Source of the DNA: a virus
Length of the DNA stretch: 37,676 bases
Direction: 5' to 3' (one strand)
Virus record (IMG/VR): IMGVR_UViG_3300033145_000693
Location: 1 to 37,676 of that record
The notes under the pieces: model-generated
Seen by the model: the letters and a program-made list of their open reading frames with translations, nothing else
Database searches by the model: none
Told to the model about the DNA's origin: nothing
Translations under genes and position numbers: made by a program
Part shown: piece by piece, positions 3,742 through 35,859 of the stretch
Layout of the letters: every line of letters starts with the position of its first letter
Numbering within the stretch: position 1 is the stretch's first letter

Positions 3742-5918
3742 GAAGCCCTGTCGCTCTTCCGAAATTGTGACTTCACTATTTTAACCTCTTCTCTTGCTTC
3801 GTCGAGCATCGTGGCGAGCGACCGGATGACATCTACCATCTCTTCGAGTGCATCAGCAGAAAGTCCCAGCGCTTGGTGGATAGCCTGCGGATCGCCTGCC
3901 GCGATTTTGGACTGTGCCGACCTGGCGGACGCCGCCTCTCCTTCCTCGCGGCCCAAGCGCGACTGCAGGCCCGCACGGCCGAGCTGTCCCCGCTTGGCAC
4001 CGGACAGCCTGTCGAGCATCGCGGCGACGTCAGCTTCCTCTTTGCCCACGATGCTGCCCTGACGTTCAAAGGCTATGCGCTGCAGCTCCTCCATGAGCGC
4101 CTTCCTCTCTTCAACGACGATGCGGGTGCGATCGTCAGGCGCACCGCGCGACCTGGCCTGGGCACGCAGGCCAATGAGCCTCGAGGCGGCAACAGCCGAA
4201 TTGGTAGCATTGATTTGCTTTGTGAGGGCCAGGATCTCCACTTGTATCTTCTTCTGCCTCTCCAGCGCAACTGCCGCTTCCTTTTCGGCGTCGGCTTTTA
4301 TACGAGCGTCCAGATCGCCCTGGACGTCAGACGCAGCCCTGGAGGCAGCGCCGAATTGTCTCACGTTCTCCAGAGTGGCCAGCCCTTTATCTATTCTCCC
4401 TTGACCGCTGCCACCTAACGCCCGGTCAAATCGTGACTGTTTTTCCTTGCCTATCGCAGCGCGCGTGCGCCGTTCTTCTTCGTCCACTGACCGGCCGGTC
4501 TGTGCGGCCATATCTTTGGCGACAGACCTGATGGCTTTGTCCTCGATGAATCCCAAAAACTCAGTCTTGATTGCTGCGCCGATTGCCGTACCGATCTCTC
4601 CAGCAACAGCGAAGAGCGTGCGGGCTGCCGCCTGGGCCGCCAGGACAGCCATCCCGATTAGAATATCCTTTATCCCGTCGAAGATGTTTTCAACCTCTTC
4701 GCGCCCACCTCCGAGTATGGCCTCCCAGAAATCAGCAGCGTCCTCTCGAAACCCTTCGAGCTTGTCGCGCAGGCCATCGAATATCTTGTCGGTGTCCCTC
4801 CACTTCGCCAGCTCTTTGGTTATGGAATTGATTACGGGGGCGACAGTCTCGTCCAGGACGATGCCCAGGCGTGTGGCGATCCCGACAACGGTCTGCCAGA
4901 ACTTGGGCCAGTGCCTCACCCTGTCCATCTTATCGAAAGCGCCCTGCAGCGCACCGGCCGACCCGGCCATCTGCGCGAGGTCGTCGGCCGCTTGTCTCGC
5001 ATTCTTGCCAGTCAATCCGAGGACACCCATCAGGGCTTCGTCTGTCCCGAGCAGCTTCTTGAGTGCGGTCTGGCTGCCACCGGCCTGCTTGGCGACCTTG
5101 GCCATTGCGTCCTGGAACGACATTGTCTTGATCCAGCCATCCCCGAGAACCTTGTTGAGTCCGAAGATAGACGCCCGGATCTGCGTCATGGCCTGGGCTG
5201 TAGGCGTGCCGCCCTTCGTCATGGTAGCAATGGCTGCCAGGATCTGCTGGATCGGGATGTTGGCGGCCGCTGCGGCCGGTGCGACGGTAGCGATGTTGGC
5301 TGCCAGCGCGGCAAAGGTTGTGGCTCCGTTGGCTACAGTGGAGAACAACTGATCGGCGACCTCCATCGCCTGCGCGGACTCGAGATGGAAGGCGTTGAGT
5401 ATGTTTGTCATACCAGCGACAGCGCCGGATACAGTTGAGCTGTCCGCGACGGCCACCTTGGCGGCCAGCTTCAAGAAGTCCAGGGCGTTGTCCTGGGGAA
5501 TGCCGCGCGAGAGCGTCTCGTATAATCCGTCGGCAAGCTCTGACTTTAGGACGCCCAGGTCACCGGAGAGGGCATTGACTTCTTTACGGAACTTATTGAA
5601 CTCGCGAACACCACCATTCATCATGGTCGACGCGCGAGCCATCTGTATGGTGTACTTCGAGGCGTTGCGTATCAGCGCTCCGATGGCGATGGTCGTGGCG
5701 ATGGCGGCCGTGCGCAGCTTGTTGAGTAGCGGCGTCACCATCGATGTGCCGCGACGCAGCAATCCCAGCGCCTTAGATCCCAGGCGGCCCATGACTGCAA
5801 ACGCTTTGCCCACGCGGAAGACTATCTTGAGCAACTTCCCTGTGCCGCGCAGCACGATATTAAGACCCGTCTTGTCGCCGACGGTCTTGATCAATAGTTT
5901 GATATCAGGAAACGCCAT
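3738..5918 (-). CDS. tail tape measure protein (TP901-like core)
   Basis: A 726-residue protein that sets tail length and probably delivers DNA through the membrane. The N-terminal quarter has short hydrophobic helices (AAIATTIAIGALI). It is followed by the typical tape-measure core: MARASTMMNGGV, then a long helix-rich segment with AAKVAVADSSTVSGAVAGMTNILNAF, an Ala-rich MEVADQLFSTVANGATTFAALA stretch in which TIATV-APAAAA follows, and IQQILAAIATMTKGGTPTAQAMTQIRASI. These are features of the TP901 tape-measure family. The C-terminal half is coiled coil rich in Ala, Arg, Glu and Lys. An RBS-like AGAGG precedes the ATG. At 726 residues the tail would be about 110 nm by the usual 0.15 nm per residue rule, which is an estimate only. 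Confidence 0.85.
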   Translation of the reverse strand: MAFPDIKLLIKTVGDKTGLNIVLRGTGKLLKIVFRVGKAFAVMGRLGSKALGLLRRGTSMVTPLLNKLRTAAIATTIAIGALIRNASKYTIQMARASTMMNGGVREFNKFRKEVNALSGDLGVLKSELADGLYETLSRGIPQDNALDFLKLAAKVAVADSSTVSGAVAGMTNILNAFHLESAQAMEVADQLFSTVANGATTFAALAANIATVAPAAAAANIPIQQILAAIATMTKGGTPTAQAMTQIRASIFGLNKVLGDGWIKTMSFQDAMAKVAKQAGGSQTALKKLLGTDEALMGVLGLTGKNARQAADDLAQMAGSAGALQGAFDKMDRVRHWPKFWQTVVGIATRLGIVLDETVAPVINSITKELAKWRDTDKIFDGLRDKLEGFREDAADFWEAILGGGREEVENIFDGIKDILIGMAVLAAQAAARTLFAVAGEIGTAIGAAIKTEFLGFIEDKAIRSVAKDMAAQTGRSVDEEERRTRAAIGKEKQSRFDRALGGSGQGRIDKGLATLENVRQFGAASRAASDVQGDLDARIKADAEKEAAVALERQKKIQVEILALTKQINATNSAVAASRLIGLRAQARSRGAPDDRTRIVVEERKALMEELQRIAFERQGSIVGKEEADVAAMLDRLSGAKRGQLGRAGLQSRLGREEGEAASARSAQSKIAAGDPQAIHQALGLSADALEEMVDVIRSLATMLDEAREEVKIVKSQFRKSDRAS

Positions 5919-32232: not shown

Positions 32233-32601
32233 ATGCGGAGCAACAGGACAGGCAGGCAACGGCGACCAACGAAGAGACGGCAACAACATGCGCCCTGGCA
32301 GAGAAAGCCCAGGGTCCGCAGGAGAAACCGGCCACTCGGCGACAACCCAAAAGATAAGTGGATCGGCGGCTGCGTGTTGTTCTTCGCGTTCCAGGCGATC
32401 CTCTTCACTGTGCTCAAGTTGAGTGGCGCTATCTCCTGGCCCTGGAAGTGGACGCTCTGGTCTCTGTGGTGCCCGCTCGTGGCCTGGCTCGGGGTCATCG
32501 CGGCCATCTGGATAGGCGGCCTGCTGATCTGCATCGTGCGCGGCTGGCTCTACAAGTTGGCGAGAGACATCCTCACCAAACCGACAGAAGAGGGAATTTA
32601 G
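32233..32601 (+). CDS. membrane protein with basic N-terminus (holin-like candidate)
   Basis: 122 residues; AAAGGAGGAG lies ahead of the ATG. A strongly basic first 50 residues (RSNRTGRQRRPTKRRQQ, RKPRVRRRNRPLGDN) is followed by two membrane helices (GGCVLFFAFQAILFTVLKLSGAISWPW and WCPLVAWLGVIAAIWIGGLLICIV) and a short tail. Two-helix organisation resembles class II holins, and there is no other obvious holin in the late block. That is only a suggestion. The 3' end lies inside the first copy of the CGACAGAA element. Confidence 0.6.
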   Translation: MRSNRTGRQRRPTKRRQQHAPWQRKPRVRRRNRPLGDNPKDKWIGGCVLFFAFQAILFTVLKLSGAISWPWKWTLWSLWCPLVAWLGVIAAIWIGGLLICIVRGWLYKLARDILTKPTEEGI

Positions 32602-32602
32602 A

Positions 32603-32731
32603 ATGAAGATTGTGACGCGTAAAGATTCCCACTGGTGGGACTTGCTACGGCTGAATTGTCGGTATCGAAACGGCAACGGCCAATGTATCAACCGGCCACG
32701 CAAAATGGACAACTGGCTACATCAGGTGTGA
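32603..32731 (+). CDS. 42-residue basic peptide, unknown
   Basis: MKIVTRKDSHWWDLLRLNCRYRNGNGQCINRPRKMDN... is a short basic Trp-rich protein with two Cys, preceded by the element copy at 32582 and a GAGGG-like RBS. It is supported chiefly by its leader, which is 29-nt identical to that of the gene at 33294. No family recognised. It could also be non-coding drift, but the leader argues otherwise. Confidence 0.5.
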   Translation: MKIVTRKDSHWWDLLRLNCRYRNGNGQCINRPRKMDNWLHQV

Positions 32732-32790
32732 GTCGCGGGGATGCCACTTGCTCAAGCCGACCGAATAGTAATCAACAAGGAGAAATGACG

Positions 32791-33261
32791 ATGCAAAAGA
32801 ACACCAAAACAACATTCACGGCGGATGATGGCAAAAGGTTTGATAACGCGGAAGACGCAAAGCGGCACGAGGCGTTGGCCAGCGCAAAGGACGAATACGA
32901 AACCAGCAAGAAGGCATACGCCAAACTATTGTGGAATAGCCAGAAGACCGCAGACGGCATCCAGTTTAATTTGACTTGCTCTGGCGAGTACTTTTTTCTC
33001 CGCGAGGGTATATCTATACCCTCAATTCATCGTGTATCGTTTTTCGGCTGGAACTGTACTCTCAATGAAGATGATGAGACAGTTATTATTCAAGAGGAAA
33101 CCAGACACGCCGAGACTCGCCACCACACATACAAAATATCAGAATTATACAAGATGGAAAAAAGCGCACAGTTGGCAAAAGTCGAAGCGTTGAAGAGGTA
33201 TATCAGTTGGGCCGAGGATGATATTAAGGATACTAAAGCCAAGTTGGGCGCGGATAAATAG
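32791..33261 (+). CDS. mixed-charge protein, unknown
   Basis: About 156 residues. AAGGAG lies eight bases before ATG 32791 (an ATG six bases earlier has the RBS too close). It starts MQKNTKTTFTADDGKRFDNAEDAKRHEALA, with helix AKDEYETSKKAYAKLLWNSQKT. The second part is beta-rich (GEYFFLREGISIPSIHRVSFFGWN), followed by helix and a Lys-rich end. The sequence is much richer in A+T than the early block. A short domain of the kind F.(A/D)DG..F.....A..HE near the N-terminus is common in phage proteins that modify host function, without known role. It has no element copy in front. Confidence 0.65.
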   Translation: MQKNTKTTFTADDGKRFDNAEDAKRHEALASAKDEYETSKKAYAKLLWNSQKTADGIQFNLTCSGEYFFLREGISIPSIHRVSFFGWNCTLNEDDETVIIQEETRHAETRHHTYKISELYKMEKSAQLAKVEALKRYISWAEDDIKDTKAKLGADK

Positions 33262-33293
33262 TAAACCGTTTCCGACAGAAGAGGGAATTTAGA

Positions 33294-33473
33294 ATGAAGA
33301 AGAAAGTCATTGTGGGGTATGTAGGGCGTGGGGCTGATGCAATGCGGATATACGATGGCAAGGGTGGCGTTTCTCTTCATGGGTATCTGATTAATCGCAG
33401 AGGCAACAAGAAAAATTGGGCCACCTACGAATGGCCGCCCAAGAAAGTCAGAATAACAATCGAAGAGCTGTGA
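33294..33473 (+). CDS. 59-residue basic protein, unknown
   Basis: MKKKVIVGYVGRGADAMRIYDGKGGVSLHGYL, then NRRGNKKNWATYEWPPKKVRITIEEL. A small beta-rich basic protein. The start has GAGGG and the element 21 bases ahead; this leader is 29-nt identical to the one at 32581. Clean frame with well-formed start and stop. No family recognised. Confidence 0.65.
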   Translation: MKKKVIVGYVGRGADAMRIYDGKGGVSLHGYLINRRGNKKNWATYEWPPKKVRITIEEL

Positions 33474-33525
33474 TGGCTCTTAATCGTAGACGCAAAACGA
33501 CAGAACTTACACAAAAAGGAGAATG

Positions 33526-33909
33526 ATGAAGAAACTTATGATCGGAGCTAGAATTGGAATCATCGTGTGTGCGCTGGGAATGATCGCCAAAGCGTTGGGA
33601 TTACGCAAGGGAAGAATTGAGCCTTACATTGAGTTTGATTCTGTCACGCTGTTGGACAAGCGGACGCTTGAACTGAATCTGCGAAACCTACAAGACGGCT
33701 TTGTTTCGATTAGTCGCATGGCAAGTAGGTTGATGGATGCTCACGACAAGGAGAGGTATCTGAAAGCGAGGTGGCGGGAGTGTGACGGATGCGGCAAGAA
33801 GTATTTATATGAAACCCATATCAGCAAGCCACCAGACCGGCCACCTATTTGCTGTTCGATAAAATGCCACAGCGAGGCGGTGAATAAGCAGGGGAGACGG
33901 TGTGCTTAA
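33526..33909 (+). CDS. membrane-anchored protein with zinc knuckles
   Basis: About 127 residues; I use the second of two ATGs (33526), which has the RBS AAGGAG four bases ahead. N-terminal helix ARIGIIVCALGMIAKALGL can cross the membrane. The C-terminal third, CDGCGKKYLYETHISKPPDRPPICCSIKCHSEAVNKQGRRC, has CxxC, CC and CxxxC pairs typical of a zinc ribbon. Between them lies helix DKERYLKARW. Element copy at 33498. Function unknown. Confidence 0.65.
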   Translation: MKKLMIGARIGIIVCALGMIAKALGLRKGRIEPYIEFDSVTLLDKRTLELNLRNLQDGFVSISRMASRLMDAHDKERYLKARWRECDGCGKKYLYETHISKPPDRPPICCSIKCHSEAVNKQGRRCA

Positions 33910-33945
33910 AGGTAGACCGTTTCCGACAGAAAAGAGAGGATTAGA

Positions 33946-34131
33946 ATGACAATCCACAAGCTGAAAGGATATGGCGGCTTTATCATGGCCGTACCGATCT
34001 TGGGGTGTAGCGGTGGCAAGGCGTTGATGAATAAAATGGGCTGGCAAAGTTCATGGTTTTGGAAGGGCGTAACGTGTCTAAAGTGTCTCAAGGAGCGTAG
34101 ACGCAAAACGACAGGAGATCAACTATGTTAA
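33946..34131 (+). CDS. 61-residue small protein, unknown
   Basis: MTIHKLKGYGGFIMAVPILGCSGGKALMNKMGWQSSWFWKG, then TCLKCLKERRRKTTGDQLC. A Cys pair (CLKC) precedes a very basic end, encoded partly by the next element copy (34109). It has GAGG seven bases ahead and the element at 33924. The stop lies inside the next gene's start (ATGTTAATAG). Weak hydrophobic middle; no membrane call. Confidence 0.6.
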   Translation: MTIHKLKGYGGFIMAVPILGCSGGKALMNKMGWQSSWFWKGVTCLKCLKERRRKTTGDQLC

Positions 34132-34331
34132 TAGAAGCAGCATATCAGGACGGCAAATTCATAGGTCACAGATTGAGGGAGGGTCCAGACACTTTGCTTG
34201 TCTTTGCAAATCAGCCGATGATGCAGGGCTTTCGCCTTGCCGAGAAGTTTGTGCCTTCGATAGGCACAGAAATTGAATATCGCAAGTGTAAGGTTGTCGA
34301 GAATACTCCCCCTATTTCGACAGAACTTTGA
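34125..34331 (+). CDS. 68-residue protein, unknown
   Basis: MLIEAAYQDGKFIGHRLREGPDTLLVFANQPMMQGFRLAEKFVPSIGTEIEYRK... ends PPISTEL. Beta-alpha-rich and soluble. The element copy CGACAG at 34109 lies 16 bases ahead with GGAG directly attached. The final STEL is encoded by the next copy, as in the gene at 34695. Unknown family. Confidence 0.6.
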   Translation: MLIEAAYQDGKFIGHRLREGPDTLLVFANQPMMQGFRLAEKFVPSIGTEIEYRKCKVVENTPPISTEL

Positions 34332-34340
34332 GGAAGGGAT

Positions 34341-34440
34341 AATTTGACGGTTCCTGAACGGCAACTGTTTAGTAGGGACGTAAGCGAACAACGGAGCCTG
34401 GAGGCGATTGAGTTTCCATCCCGAAGTTAGTAGGCCGTCA
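34341..34440 (+). other. stretch with possible small ORF or structured RNA
   Basis: Behind the element copy at 34318 no ATG gene starts. A TTG at 34344 opens a 28-codon frame ending at 34430 (PERQLFSRDVSEQRSLEAIEF), with GAGGAAGGG ahead of it. The same stretch can pair GACGG (34346-34350) with CCGTC (34435-34439) and GGGA with TCCC inside, forming a closed structure. The two explanations compete; neither is strong. Confidence 0.35.
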
Positions 34441-34481
34441 TTCAATTGGGAACAAGATTCGACAAATAGCGGAGGATTAGA

Positions 34482-34664
34482 ATGAAGGTAACTATTGACA
34501 TTGAGTCAGATATGCCGCCAAGGGCAGCAACAAAAAGAGACATTCAGAAAAACATTGATGCGGTCCGCAGAGCCGTTGATGGAAAACCAACCTGCACCGA
34601 CTTTGTGCCACTCATAAGCGTTGAAGGGATGCTGGTCGCAATTCAAAAACAGCTAGTAGATTAG
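34482..34664 (+). CDS. 60-residue protein, unknown
   Basis: MKVTIDIESDMPPRAATKRDIQKNIDAVRRAVDGKPTCTDFVPLISVEGMLVAIQ... is an alpha-helical small protein with a short beta start. GGAGG is eight bases ahead and the element (CGACAAA, degenerate) at 34460. No family recognised. Confidence 0.6.
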   Translation: MKVTIDIESDMPPRAATKRDIQKNIDAVRRAVDGKPTCTDFVPLISVEGMLVAIQKQLVD

Positions 34665-34694
34665 TCTACCACTTTCGACAGATAATGGAGGATT

Positions 34695-34838
34695 ATGAAA
34701 ACGATCAAACGTGGCGATGTAGTAAGGCGAGTGACGGATGAGGAAGCGGCATTTCTGACCAAGAAAGAGTGGGACTATTGCCCAAAAGCAGAACACAAAA
34801 AGACGCATAATCCGCAACCCGTTTCGACAGAACTTTGA
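34695..34838 (+). CDS. 47-residue basic protein, unknown
   Basis: MKTIKRGDVVRRVTDEEAAFLTKKEWDYCPKAEHKK... ends in VSTEL, encoded by the next element copy (34825). GGAGG is six bases ahead and the element is at 34676. The opening GDVVRRVTDEEA resembles the starts of small phage adaptor proteins but is too short to name. Good start and stop signals. Confidence 0.6.
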   Translation: MKTIKRGDVVRRVTDEEAAFLTKKEWDYCPKAEHKKTHNPQPVSTEL

Positions 34839-34849
34839 GGATACCGAAA

Positions 34850-34963
34850 ATGCGAAAAAGCTTTTTTTTCAACTTTGTTTCGGCAAGCAGGGCAAGACGG
34901 AATTTTTCAGAAGGGTCCAGATTGGCCGTTATCGGCAAAATCGAAAAACCCGATATGGTATAA
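34850..34963 (+). CDS. possible 37-residue basic peptide
   Basis: MRKSFFFNFVSASRARRNF... has an element copy 25 bases ahead, with GAGG about 12 bases before the start. The composition is odd and the last codons overlap a promoter-like TATAAT. The 20-nt match of its leader to that at 34315 suggests either a real gene or a decayed one. Weak. Confidence 0.35.
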   Translation: MRKSFFFNFVSASRARRNFSEGSRLAVIGKIEKPDMV

Positions 34964-34964
34964 T
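34956..34964 (+). promoter_or_regulatory. extended -10 promoter candidate
   Basis: TGGTATAAT (TATAAT at 34959-34964) is a consensus extended -10, with TG one base upstream of the hexamer. I see no good -35 at 16-18 bp, which extended -10 promoters do not need. It would start transcription near 34971 and express the gene at 35011 and those behind it. That gene is the one in the row that lacks an element copy. Confidence 0.5.
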
Positions 34965-35010
34965 AGTGTTGTAGGTTGGAATTGGCCTGACCGCAACAAG
35001 GGAGGTTGAG

Positions 35011-35190
35011 ATGGCAGACGAAACATATTCTTTCAGAGAGACACGGGAAGAGATTGAGCGACGTATGGTTTGCCTAGCAAGCCAAGGGATAGAAGCTAAG
35101 TTTGATGGCAGAGTCTTGGAGTACACGGCAAGGGGAAGATTAACAAAGGTGTTGTTGGATCAAGAGGTAGAGTCCATACACGCTTTTTGA
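35011..35190 (+). CDS. 59-residue protein, unknown
   Basis: MADETYSFRETREEIERRMVCLASQGIEAKFDGRVLEYTARGRLTKVLLDQEVESIH. Helix then a beta-rich end. RBS AAGGGAGG six bases ahead. It has no CGACAGAA element but a promoter-like TATAAT about 50 bases before it. Soluble, unknown family. Confidence 0.65.
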   Translation: MADETYSFRETREEIERRMVCLASQGIEAKFDGRVLEYTARGRLTKVLLDQEVESIHAF

Positions 35191-35226
35191 ATCCTCTACC
35201 ACTTGCGACAGAAAAGGGAATGTGAT

Positions 35227-35385
35227 ATGGGAAAGGAAACACAGCCAAAGCGCAAACCTGCCAACTACATTGTTATTGGTGACTATACGATATACCAGCC
35301 AGAAAACAACAGAGTCAGGATCGAACATATTGAAGAATGTCTGTTTGCGGGACAACTTGGCGAGACGTTTCGGGAACACTTTTAG
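35227..35385 (+). CDS. 52-residue protein, unknown
   Basis: From MGKETQPKRKPANYIVIGDYTIYQPENNRVRIEHIEECLFAGQLGE. I use ATG 35227 because the AAGGG and the element (35206) are in the right place for it; an in-frame ATG at 35203 overlaps the element. Beta-rich N-terminal half, then a short helix. Unknown family. Confidence 0.6.
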   Translation: MGKETQPKRKPANYIVIGDYTIYQPENNRVRIEHIEECLFAGQLGETFREHF

Positions 35386-35416
35386 TCAACAGCCGACAGA
35401 ACAAGGAACTTAACAG

Positions 35417-35602
35417 ATGCTCACTGATAAGATTAGAAAATGGTGCCCTGGCCATCCGTGTTGTCAACGGCCCGAGGAGGACGCAGCATGGCGATGGTAC
35501 TGCTGCACAGATAGTGGATCACACCTTCGTAGATGCATAGACAGTAGCTGCCCTATTGTTCTACATAAGCACGAACTCGCGACAGAACGGAGCGCAAGAT
35601 GA
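35417..35602 (+). CDS. 61-residue Cys/His-rich protein
   Basis: MLTDKIRKWCPGHPCCQRPEEDAAWRWYCCTDSGSHLRRCIDSSCPIVLHKHEL. Seven Cys and several His suggest a metal-binding fold. The element copy lies at 35394 and AAGGAA before the ATG. The last ten codons lie in the next element copy (35580), and the stop overlaps the next start as ATGA. Unknown family. Confidence 0.6.
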   Translation: MLTDKIRKWCPGHPCCQRPEEDAAWRWYCCTDSGSHLRRCIDSSCPIVLHKHELATERSAR

Positions 35603-35859
35603 TACCGGATATTTACAAACCGCGATTCGATCTCGACGAGGCGCAAGCCGCCAGTGATGAATGGAACTTCAACTGCGGCCCATCCGCGCTTGCCGTTATG
35701 GCTGGCCTGGCCATCATTGGCTATGGCCTGGCGAGTTTCTTCAAGACGATCCAACAGGACTCCAGGGGCGGGTACACGCCGGTCGACCAGGGCCAGGGAG
35801 AGCTGCCGGATCCGCCGCCTGGCGGCACAGGGGAATCGGAGGGCGGCCGAGATGACTGA
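35599..35859 (+). CDS. NCGPSAL-motif membrane protein, possibly truncated
   Basis: 86 residues. After DEAQAASDEWNF comes NCGPSALAVMAGL, a motif seen in phage proteins resembling cysteine peptidases of the C39/papain group, in which the Cys is catalytic. Here the sequence then changes to AIIGYGLASFF, so the whole PSALAVMAGLAIIGYGLASFF becomes a membrane helix, followed by a Gly/Pro/Asp-rich end. No His partner remains, so it is likely a remnant or a new membrane protein built from one. The element copy is at 35580 and GGAG before the start. Confidence 0.5.
   Translation: MIPDIYKPRFDLDEAQAASDEWNFNCGPSALAVMAGLAIIGYGLASFFKTIQQDSRGGYTPVDQGQGELPDPPPGGTGESEGGRDD

Follow-up and report, generated by a model that had tools for sequence, protein, structure and literature searches.

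A short sequence at the gene boundaries of a tiny-gene row in an IMG/VR viral genome: a possible frame-standardised joint for cassette exchange

In lambdoid phages, short conserved sequences at gene boundaries have been proposed as sites of homologous recombination by which modules are shuffled (Clark et al. 2001, on HK620; Susskind and Botstein 1978), as far as these accounts are cited in PMC3029335; conserved boundary sequences are not identifiable at most phage junctions (PMC3029335). In the mycobacteriophage Island3, gene 68 has 18 C-terminal residues in common with gene 67 (PMC3029335). Another kind of element, the start-associated sequence (SAS) of cluster K mycobacteriophages, has the consensus GGGATAGGAGCCC, contains the Shine-Dalgarno sequence, lies 3-7 bp from the start and favours gaps over 50 bp, with half of the copies carrying 17-bp inverted repeats (ESAS) (Pope et al. 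2011, PMC3203893); its function is still unverified (PMC12699233). The present study concerns an 8-bp element, CGACAGAA, found ahead of nearly every gene in a row of tiny genes of the IMG/VR record IMGVR_UViG_3300033145_000693, which was analysed over its entire length of 37,676 bases (the window).

The exact core occurs nine times in the window, every copy on the + strand between 32582 and 35587, compared with a mean of 1.5 and a maximum of 5 in 100 dinucleotide shuffles of the window. Four further start-linked copies are variants (CGACCGAA at 32758, CGACAGGA at 34109, CGACAAAT at 34460 and CGACAGAT at 34676), giving 13 in total. An exact or variant core precedes 13 of 14 consecutive tiny-gene starts (32603, 32791, 33294, 33523, 33946, 34125, 34344, 34482, 34695, 34850, 35011, 35227, 35417 and 35599), 35011 being the sole start of the row without it. 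The first-pass annotation of this DNA had reported about twelve start-linked copies, and that observation is confirmed with the slightly higher count. The reported spacing of 16-26 nucleotides (nt) from core to start, with a Shine-Dalgarno sequence situated between the two, holds for all copies except variant copy 2 (33 nt). Nor is the motif equally common elsewhere: CGACAG on the + strand is start-associated in 11 of 11 cases within 32500-35650 compared with 3 of 25 in the remaining window, and the structural genes (0.3-23.7 kb) carry no exact copy, all 9/9 lying on the + strand in 32.6-35.6 kb. The row has a G+C content of 46.7%, against 56.4% for the rest of the window. An extended form, CCGTTTCCGACAGAA, said to occur in places, is indeed present, but in only two window copies (33273 and 33924); used as a search key over viral contigs it returned 30 scattered single matches and no array, and was set aside as chance only.

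The element is a gene-to-gene junction and not merely a leader. Thirty copies were pooled for an analysis of reading-frame register, with upstream open reading frames (ORFs) required to span at least 40 codons (protein tails are written below up to their stop codon). Where the core lies within such an ORF, it is read as nCG-ACA-GAA 18 times, compared with twice and once in the other frames. A stop codon follows within 35 nt in the nCG-ACA-GAA frame at 28/30 copies, against 7/30 and 14/30 in the others (Fisher 3e-8 against 7/30), and for the window copies alone the figures are 13/13 against 3/13 and 7/13. This stop is located near the next start codon or overlaps it. As had been claimed, the end of a preceding gene can be encoded by a copy, for example the KPTEEGI tail of the gene at 32233. 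The in-register stop is also present at non-coding copies, those placed after an earlier stop, and some tails look left over: NSKPFPTEEGI at 33273 alongside DILTKPTEEGI at 32582, and the tail VMQSIPTEQSKGEQG at position 4540 of a second viral genome (G061, see below), which parallels MPQSVPTEQSTGGEG in a further one (G351), there as part of a longer ORF. The first codon of the tail varies in its first base (Pro, Ser, Thr or Ala), while ACA is nearly fixed (29/30); constraint or recent copying therefore acts on the nucleotides and not on the peptide.

The flanks of the copies are shared in an uneven manner. The long exact matches between distant pairs described earlier were found again, namely 29 nt (32581-32609 = 33272-33300), 19 nt (33485-33503 = 34096-34114) and the 34318/34825 pair. 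Six pairs of copies have the left flank in common (shuffle mean 0.06) and five the right flank (mean 0.18), so that, at the thresholds used, there are 11 one-sided pairs and no pair with sharing on both sides. Examples from the window are copies 4 and 6 on the left, and copies 1 and 3 and copies 7 and 10 on the right. The same is seen in two other viral genomes: in G350 the copies at 502 and 1554 have 13 nt in common on the left only, and in G061 those at 2933 and 5323, whose left flanks differ, match to the right, beyond a 2-nt gap, over TTACATAGCAAAGGAGGTGGGGAGTGA (27 nt). Homology of the flanking modules breaks at the core or a few bases off, on one side. Had whole modules been copied, both flanks should be shared; the pattern seen is the one expected from exchange at the core.

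The rows outside the window belong to phages otherwise very different from this one. The window encodes a Mu-type portal protein (Portal_Mu, PF06074; 6e-55), a terminase, a tail tape-measure protein and a TniB-like ATPase, with PHROGs matches to a transposase (phrog_310, 2e-16) and a DNA transposition protein (phrog_296, 2e-29). Judged from the portal, the transposase and the transposition protein, it is a Mu-like (transposable) phage, and the named phage collection holds no near relative of it. Viral contigs were scanned for two copies 183-213 nt apart and for the core with AGGAG and ATGA, each scan giving at least 120 stretches, and the fetched loci were filtered for start-associated copies with a matrix built from the window copies. 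Few candidates remained among the matches listed. The clearest are G061 (IMGVR_UViG_3300018080_000023), which has an SU10-like portal and seven copies in 2.8 kb (2933, 3881, 4078, 4540, 5156, 5323 and 5750), and G350 (IMGVR_UViG_3300035698_013847), with five copies in 1.1 kb (502, 699, 896, 1402 and 1554). Each of these two rows was found via one or two copies, the remaining copies being unselected. Weaker cases are G062, with three copies, and G351, with two or three; matches in L344, L275, L385, L075 and L001 were scattered or duplicated and hence not accepted as rows. In G061 and G062 the row sits immediately upstream of the small terminase gene, and in the window, G061, G350 and G062 the G+C of the row is below that of its own genome. 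No DNA similarity to the rows of the window, G061 and G350 was found among named phages. Two other features were observed around these rows. The large protein after the G061 small terminase (L286:6491-9217) holds an intein with a LAGLIDADG endonuclease domain, and the three copies of G062 lie between two near-identical genes (L288:2882-3394 and 4531-5046), which points to a recent duplication spanning this row.

One protein is common to the window and these phages (all-against-all blastp, ORFs of at least 35 amino acids (aa), E 1e-4). It is encoded by the gene after window copy 1 and by the gene after G061 3881, with 59% identity over 34 aa by blastp (E 6e-11) and 42% over 62 aa by tblastn (E 2e-10). 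In both genomes the element is located ahead of the gene and again at its end. The DNA of the two is similar at CAAACCGACAGAA, dissimilar over the first codons, and similar again until the next junction. Compared with its G061 homologue, the window gene (start 32603) has a frameshift near 32700-32716, through either real decay or an assembly error, and in the register of the homologue it would terminate in KPTE within copy 2. Whether the motif accompanies relatives of the same genes could be compared for this gene only, and its G061 relative does carry the element. Flanked by the element in both phages, the gene and the element appear, from the sequences compared, to have passed as a unit between unrelated phages.

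The best explanation, to which we assign a probability of about 0.5, is a modular, frame-standardised boundary sequence, with the motif as its core, at which small-gene cassettes recombine. A junction would consist, in order, of the last codons of the upstream gene (nCG ACA GAA, giving [P/S/T/A]TE tails), CGACAGAA, the in-register stop, a Shine-Dalgarno sequence and the next start, which would often overlap that stop. Rows of tiny accessory genes would turn over through recombination at the core or within a few bases of it, and a crossover there would join any upstream gene to any downstream gene, so that the former still received a short tail with a stop and the latter its ribosome-binding site. 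Because the register is common, any joint would leave both in place. Copies located after a stop codon would be tail remnants of upstream genes that have been replaced. We infer that recombination gave rise to the pattern, that the short homology is used by general recombination of the phage or host, and that selection preserves translational coupling. The first-pass annotation had offered several roles, of which a seam for gene swapping is now the best supported, given the one-sided flanks, the element-flanked gene in an unrelated phage and the fixed register; its interpretation is partly supported. The element may alternatively be a target for an RNA-binding protein or for RNA cleavage, two further roles on that list.

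Several points weigh against this explanation. No closely related pair of phages differing by one cassette was found, viral contigs and named phages having yielded no close relative of the window row, and exchange was therefore not directly seen. At 8 bp the core is very short as a substrate for general recombination, and no recombining enzyme has been assigned to it. The paired repeats are 10-29 nt long and some reach a few bases into the next gene instead of stopping at the core, so that the breaks lie near the core and not at one exact base. The window row has only one gene in common with another row. The rows in G061, G350, G351 and G062 came from a search for the motif, so that CGACA is conserved in them by construction, and the invariance of CGAC, which that search demanded, is not evidence. 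A wider proposal, put forward tentatively, is that unrelated phages of Mu-like, SU10-like and other types have this junction in common and that some specific recombination or annealing function recognises it, the tiny genes circulating as interchangeable cassettes that bring a usable stop and ribosome-binding site.

Relatives of the window terminase, at 50-62% identity, were found in IMG/VR contigs and in sequences within Verrucomicrobiota/Kiritimatiellota genomes, and the host is likely to belong to that group because these relatives sit in its genomes. A scan of related phages and host genomes, recommended in the annotation, did not find the element in wider use: CGACAGAA is at chance level in 47 terminase-related contigs (sets of 8 and 39), a de novo search of the early regions of the terminase relatives gave no start-associated word, and CGACAGAA-GGA-ATG is rare in 289 genomes of the phylum, with no genome-wide use by a host. 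One of these genomes, G183, gave 52 CGACAGAA-GGA-ATG matches against 1 in the control, and was rejected as a case of host usage since nearly all are one identical repeated sequence; the repeats in G266 are likewise copies, and the remaining 287 genomes have low counts. A sequence with CGACAGAAGACAAAAAAAGGAGAAAGACATG, presumably an insertion sequence, is scattered across 3.1 Mb of G183 in about 48 near-identical copies.

Among the other explanations, the more plausible, though still doubtful, is that CGACAGAA acts in the mRNA as a translation-level start signal, bound upstream of the Shine-Dalgarno sequence by a phage or host factor or aiding re-initiation, and so sets the expression of the row. 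The core always lies ahead of a Shine-Dalgarno sequence and a start, in gene orientation, and is conserved where its surroundings are not; the nearly fixed bases of coding copies include a synonymous third position (ACA, 29/30), and stop and start are close or overlapping. Such a signal does not sit easily with the variable distance to the start (16-33 nt) and to the Shine-Dalgarno sequence, nor with the absence of genome-wide use in the 289 genomes. RNA structure, which had been suggested for checking, is not supported, as 12 copies fold no better than shuffles (z-scores near zero), with no inverted repeats and no Rfam match. No 7-8-nt complementarity was found to one full 16S rRNA (L164, from a genome with a related prophage), which is weak evidence on pairing given that a second 16S sequence (L165) is without a recognisable 3' end. 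A translation signal alone would also leave the one-sided flank sharing and the fixed upstream frame unexplained.

It is rather unlikely that the pattern reflects plain descent, in which rows grew by copying patches of tail and ribosome-binding site along with small genes, the bodies diverging and the junction remaining with a core of no function. Identical patches of 18-29 nt between copies, the make-up of the rows (low-G+C ORFans) and the precedent of the common C-terminus of Island3 genes 67 and 68 (PMC3029335) are consistent with such growth. The gene bodies of the window row, however, have no paralogues at blastp E 0.1, yet 9 of the 13 copies keep an exact core, and the identical core occurs in unrelated phages despite different flanks. 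A DNA-level signal for a dedicated enzyme at each gene, be it an integron-like recombinase, a nuclease target or a phage-specific promoter, is very improbable. The fixed orientation, the roughly one copy per gene and the occurrence in several phages would fit it, but there are no inverted-repeat pairs in 32500-35700, sigma-70 sites are not in excess (1 against 4.9 expected), and the few proteins examined include no integron integrase or single-subunit RNA polymerase, no dedicated search having been made.

All features of the row lie on the + strand. The gene at 32233 ends in junction copy 1 (32582..32602), which reads CGACAGAA GAGGGAATTTAGA ahead of ATG 32603 and the 42-aa gene at 32603..32731, the homologue of G061 3900-4106. 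Variant copy 2 (32758..32790) stands ahead of ATG 32791 of a 156-aa gene (32791..33261) with no confident family. Copy 3 (33273..33293) is identical to copy 1 over 29 nt on the right of the core and differs on the left; its tail falls outside any long ORF, and a 59-aa gene (33294..33473) without a family match follows. Copy 4 (33498..33522), with a left flank (CGTAGACGCAAAA) identical to that of copy 6 and a different right flank, precedes a Cys-rich 128-aa gene (33523..33909) for which neither family nor relative was found. Copy 5 (33924..33945) has the left flank ACCGTTTC in common with copy 3 and precedes a 61-aa gene (33946..34131), which terminates in RRRKTTGDQLC within variant copy 6 (34109..34124); the GGAG of that copy can act as a Shine-Dalgarno sequence. 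The 68-aa gene at 34125..34331 terminates in PPISTEL within copy 7 (34318..34343), whose right flank is common to copy 10 and which is followed by a possible tiny gene of 28 aa with a TTG start (34344..34430).

Variant copy 8 (34460..34481) is followed by a 60-aa gene (34482..34664), and variant copy 9 (34676..34694), with the left flank CTACCACTT common to copy 11, by a 47-aa gene (34695..34838) that terminates in QPVSTEL within copy 10 (34825..34849). A 37-aa gene (34850..34963) comes next, and then the 59-aa gene at 35011..35190, the only member without the element. A TATAAT with an upstream TG (TGGTATAAT) at 34950-34966, directly before this gene, was spotted by eye; the promoter scan listed none there. 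Copy 11 (35206..35226) precedes a 52-aa gene (35227..35385) and copy 12 (35394..35416) a 61-aa gene (35417..35602), which terminates in ELATERSAR within copy 13 and overlaps the next start. Copy 13 (35580..35598), the final copy, stands before an 86-aa gene (35599..35859), the last one behind the element. No confident family was found for the small row proteins in Pfam, PHROGs or PADLOC, the two longest row proteins had no match in named phages, and Rfam and tRNA searches gave nothing.

Other short repeats were observed in relatives of this phage. In L072 and L073 (terminase identity 34-35%), ACCCTAAC occurs 9-11 times on one strand where about 0.2 is expected, several copies lying directly before starts without a Shine-Dalgarno sequence; it may be a further start-associated element or else a signal for initiation in the host. 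Related Verrucomicrobiota-type phages (L034, L036, L037, L039, L040, L031, L041 and L042) carry short tandem repeats in or near genes, with units of 6-9 nt such as AACGTCC, AAAGCGG, AAACCC and CAACGGGAG.

The origin of phage mosaicism at gene boundaries is a long-standing question, and here one short sequence tags nearly all boundaries in a set of rows, in a fixed register, in phages otherwise sharing almost nothing. The boundary-sequence idea becomes testable through close relatives and a simple recombination or reporter assay, and the element offers a handle to find and delimit tiny accessory genes in uncultured phages.

Compared with known systems, the resemblance to cluster K SAS suggested by the first-pass annotation is one of position and distribution and not of sequence. 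As with SAS, about a dozen oriented copies lie just upstream of non-structural gene starts, with the upstream stop sometimes inside the element. Unlike SAS, the window core lies upstream of the Shine-Dalgarno sequence, 16-33 nt from the start, is often within the preceding gene and has no inverted repeats; the SAS consensus was not found within two mismatches upstream of starts, the 5 matches all having 3 mismatches where chance gives 10. Integron cassette arrays (attC with an integron integrase) differ in that the window row has no inverted repeats, an integrase not having been specifically searched for. A row of small early accessory genes whose stop and start codons overlap is also a feature of a known system in a different type of phage. 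The window row has sharing of C-terminal tails in common with Island3 genes 67 and 68. As with the lambdoid boundary sequences, short DNA is conserved at several gene boundaries (13 in the window, with rows in G061 and G350), whereas here a single 8-bp core marks 13 junctions of one row and recurs in unrelated phages in a fixed register, and both the sequence and the hosts are different. By descent the window element is a member of neither that kind nor SAS; by its behaviour it is a variant of the conserved-boundary-sequence kind.

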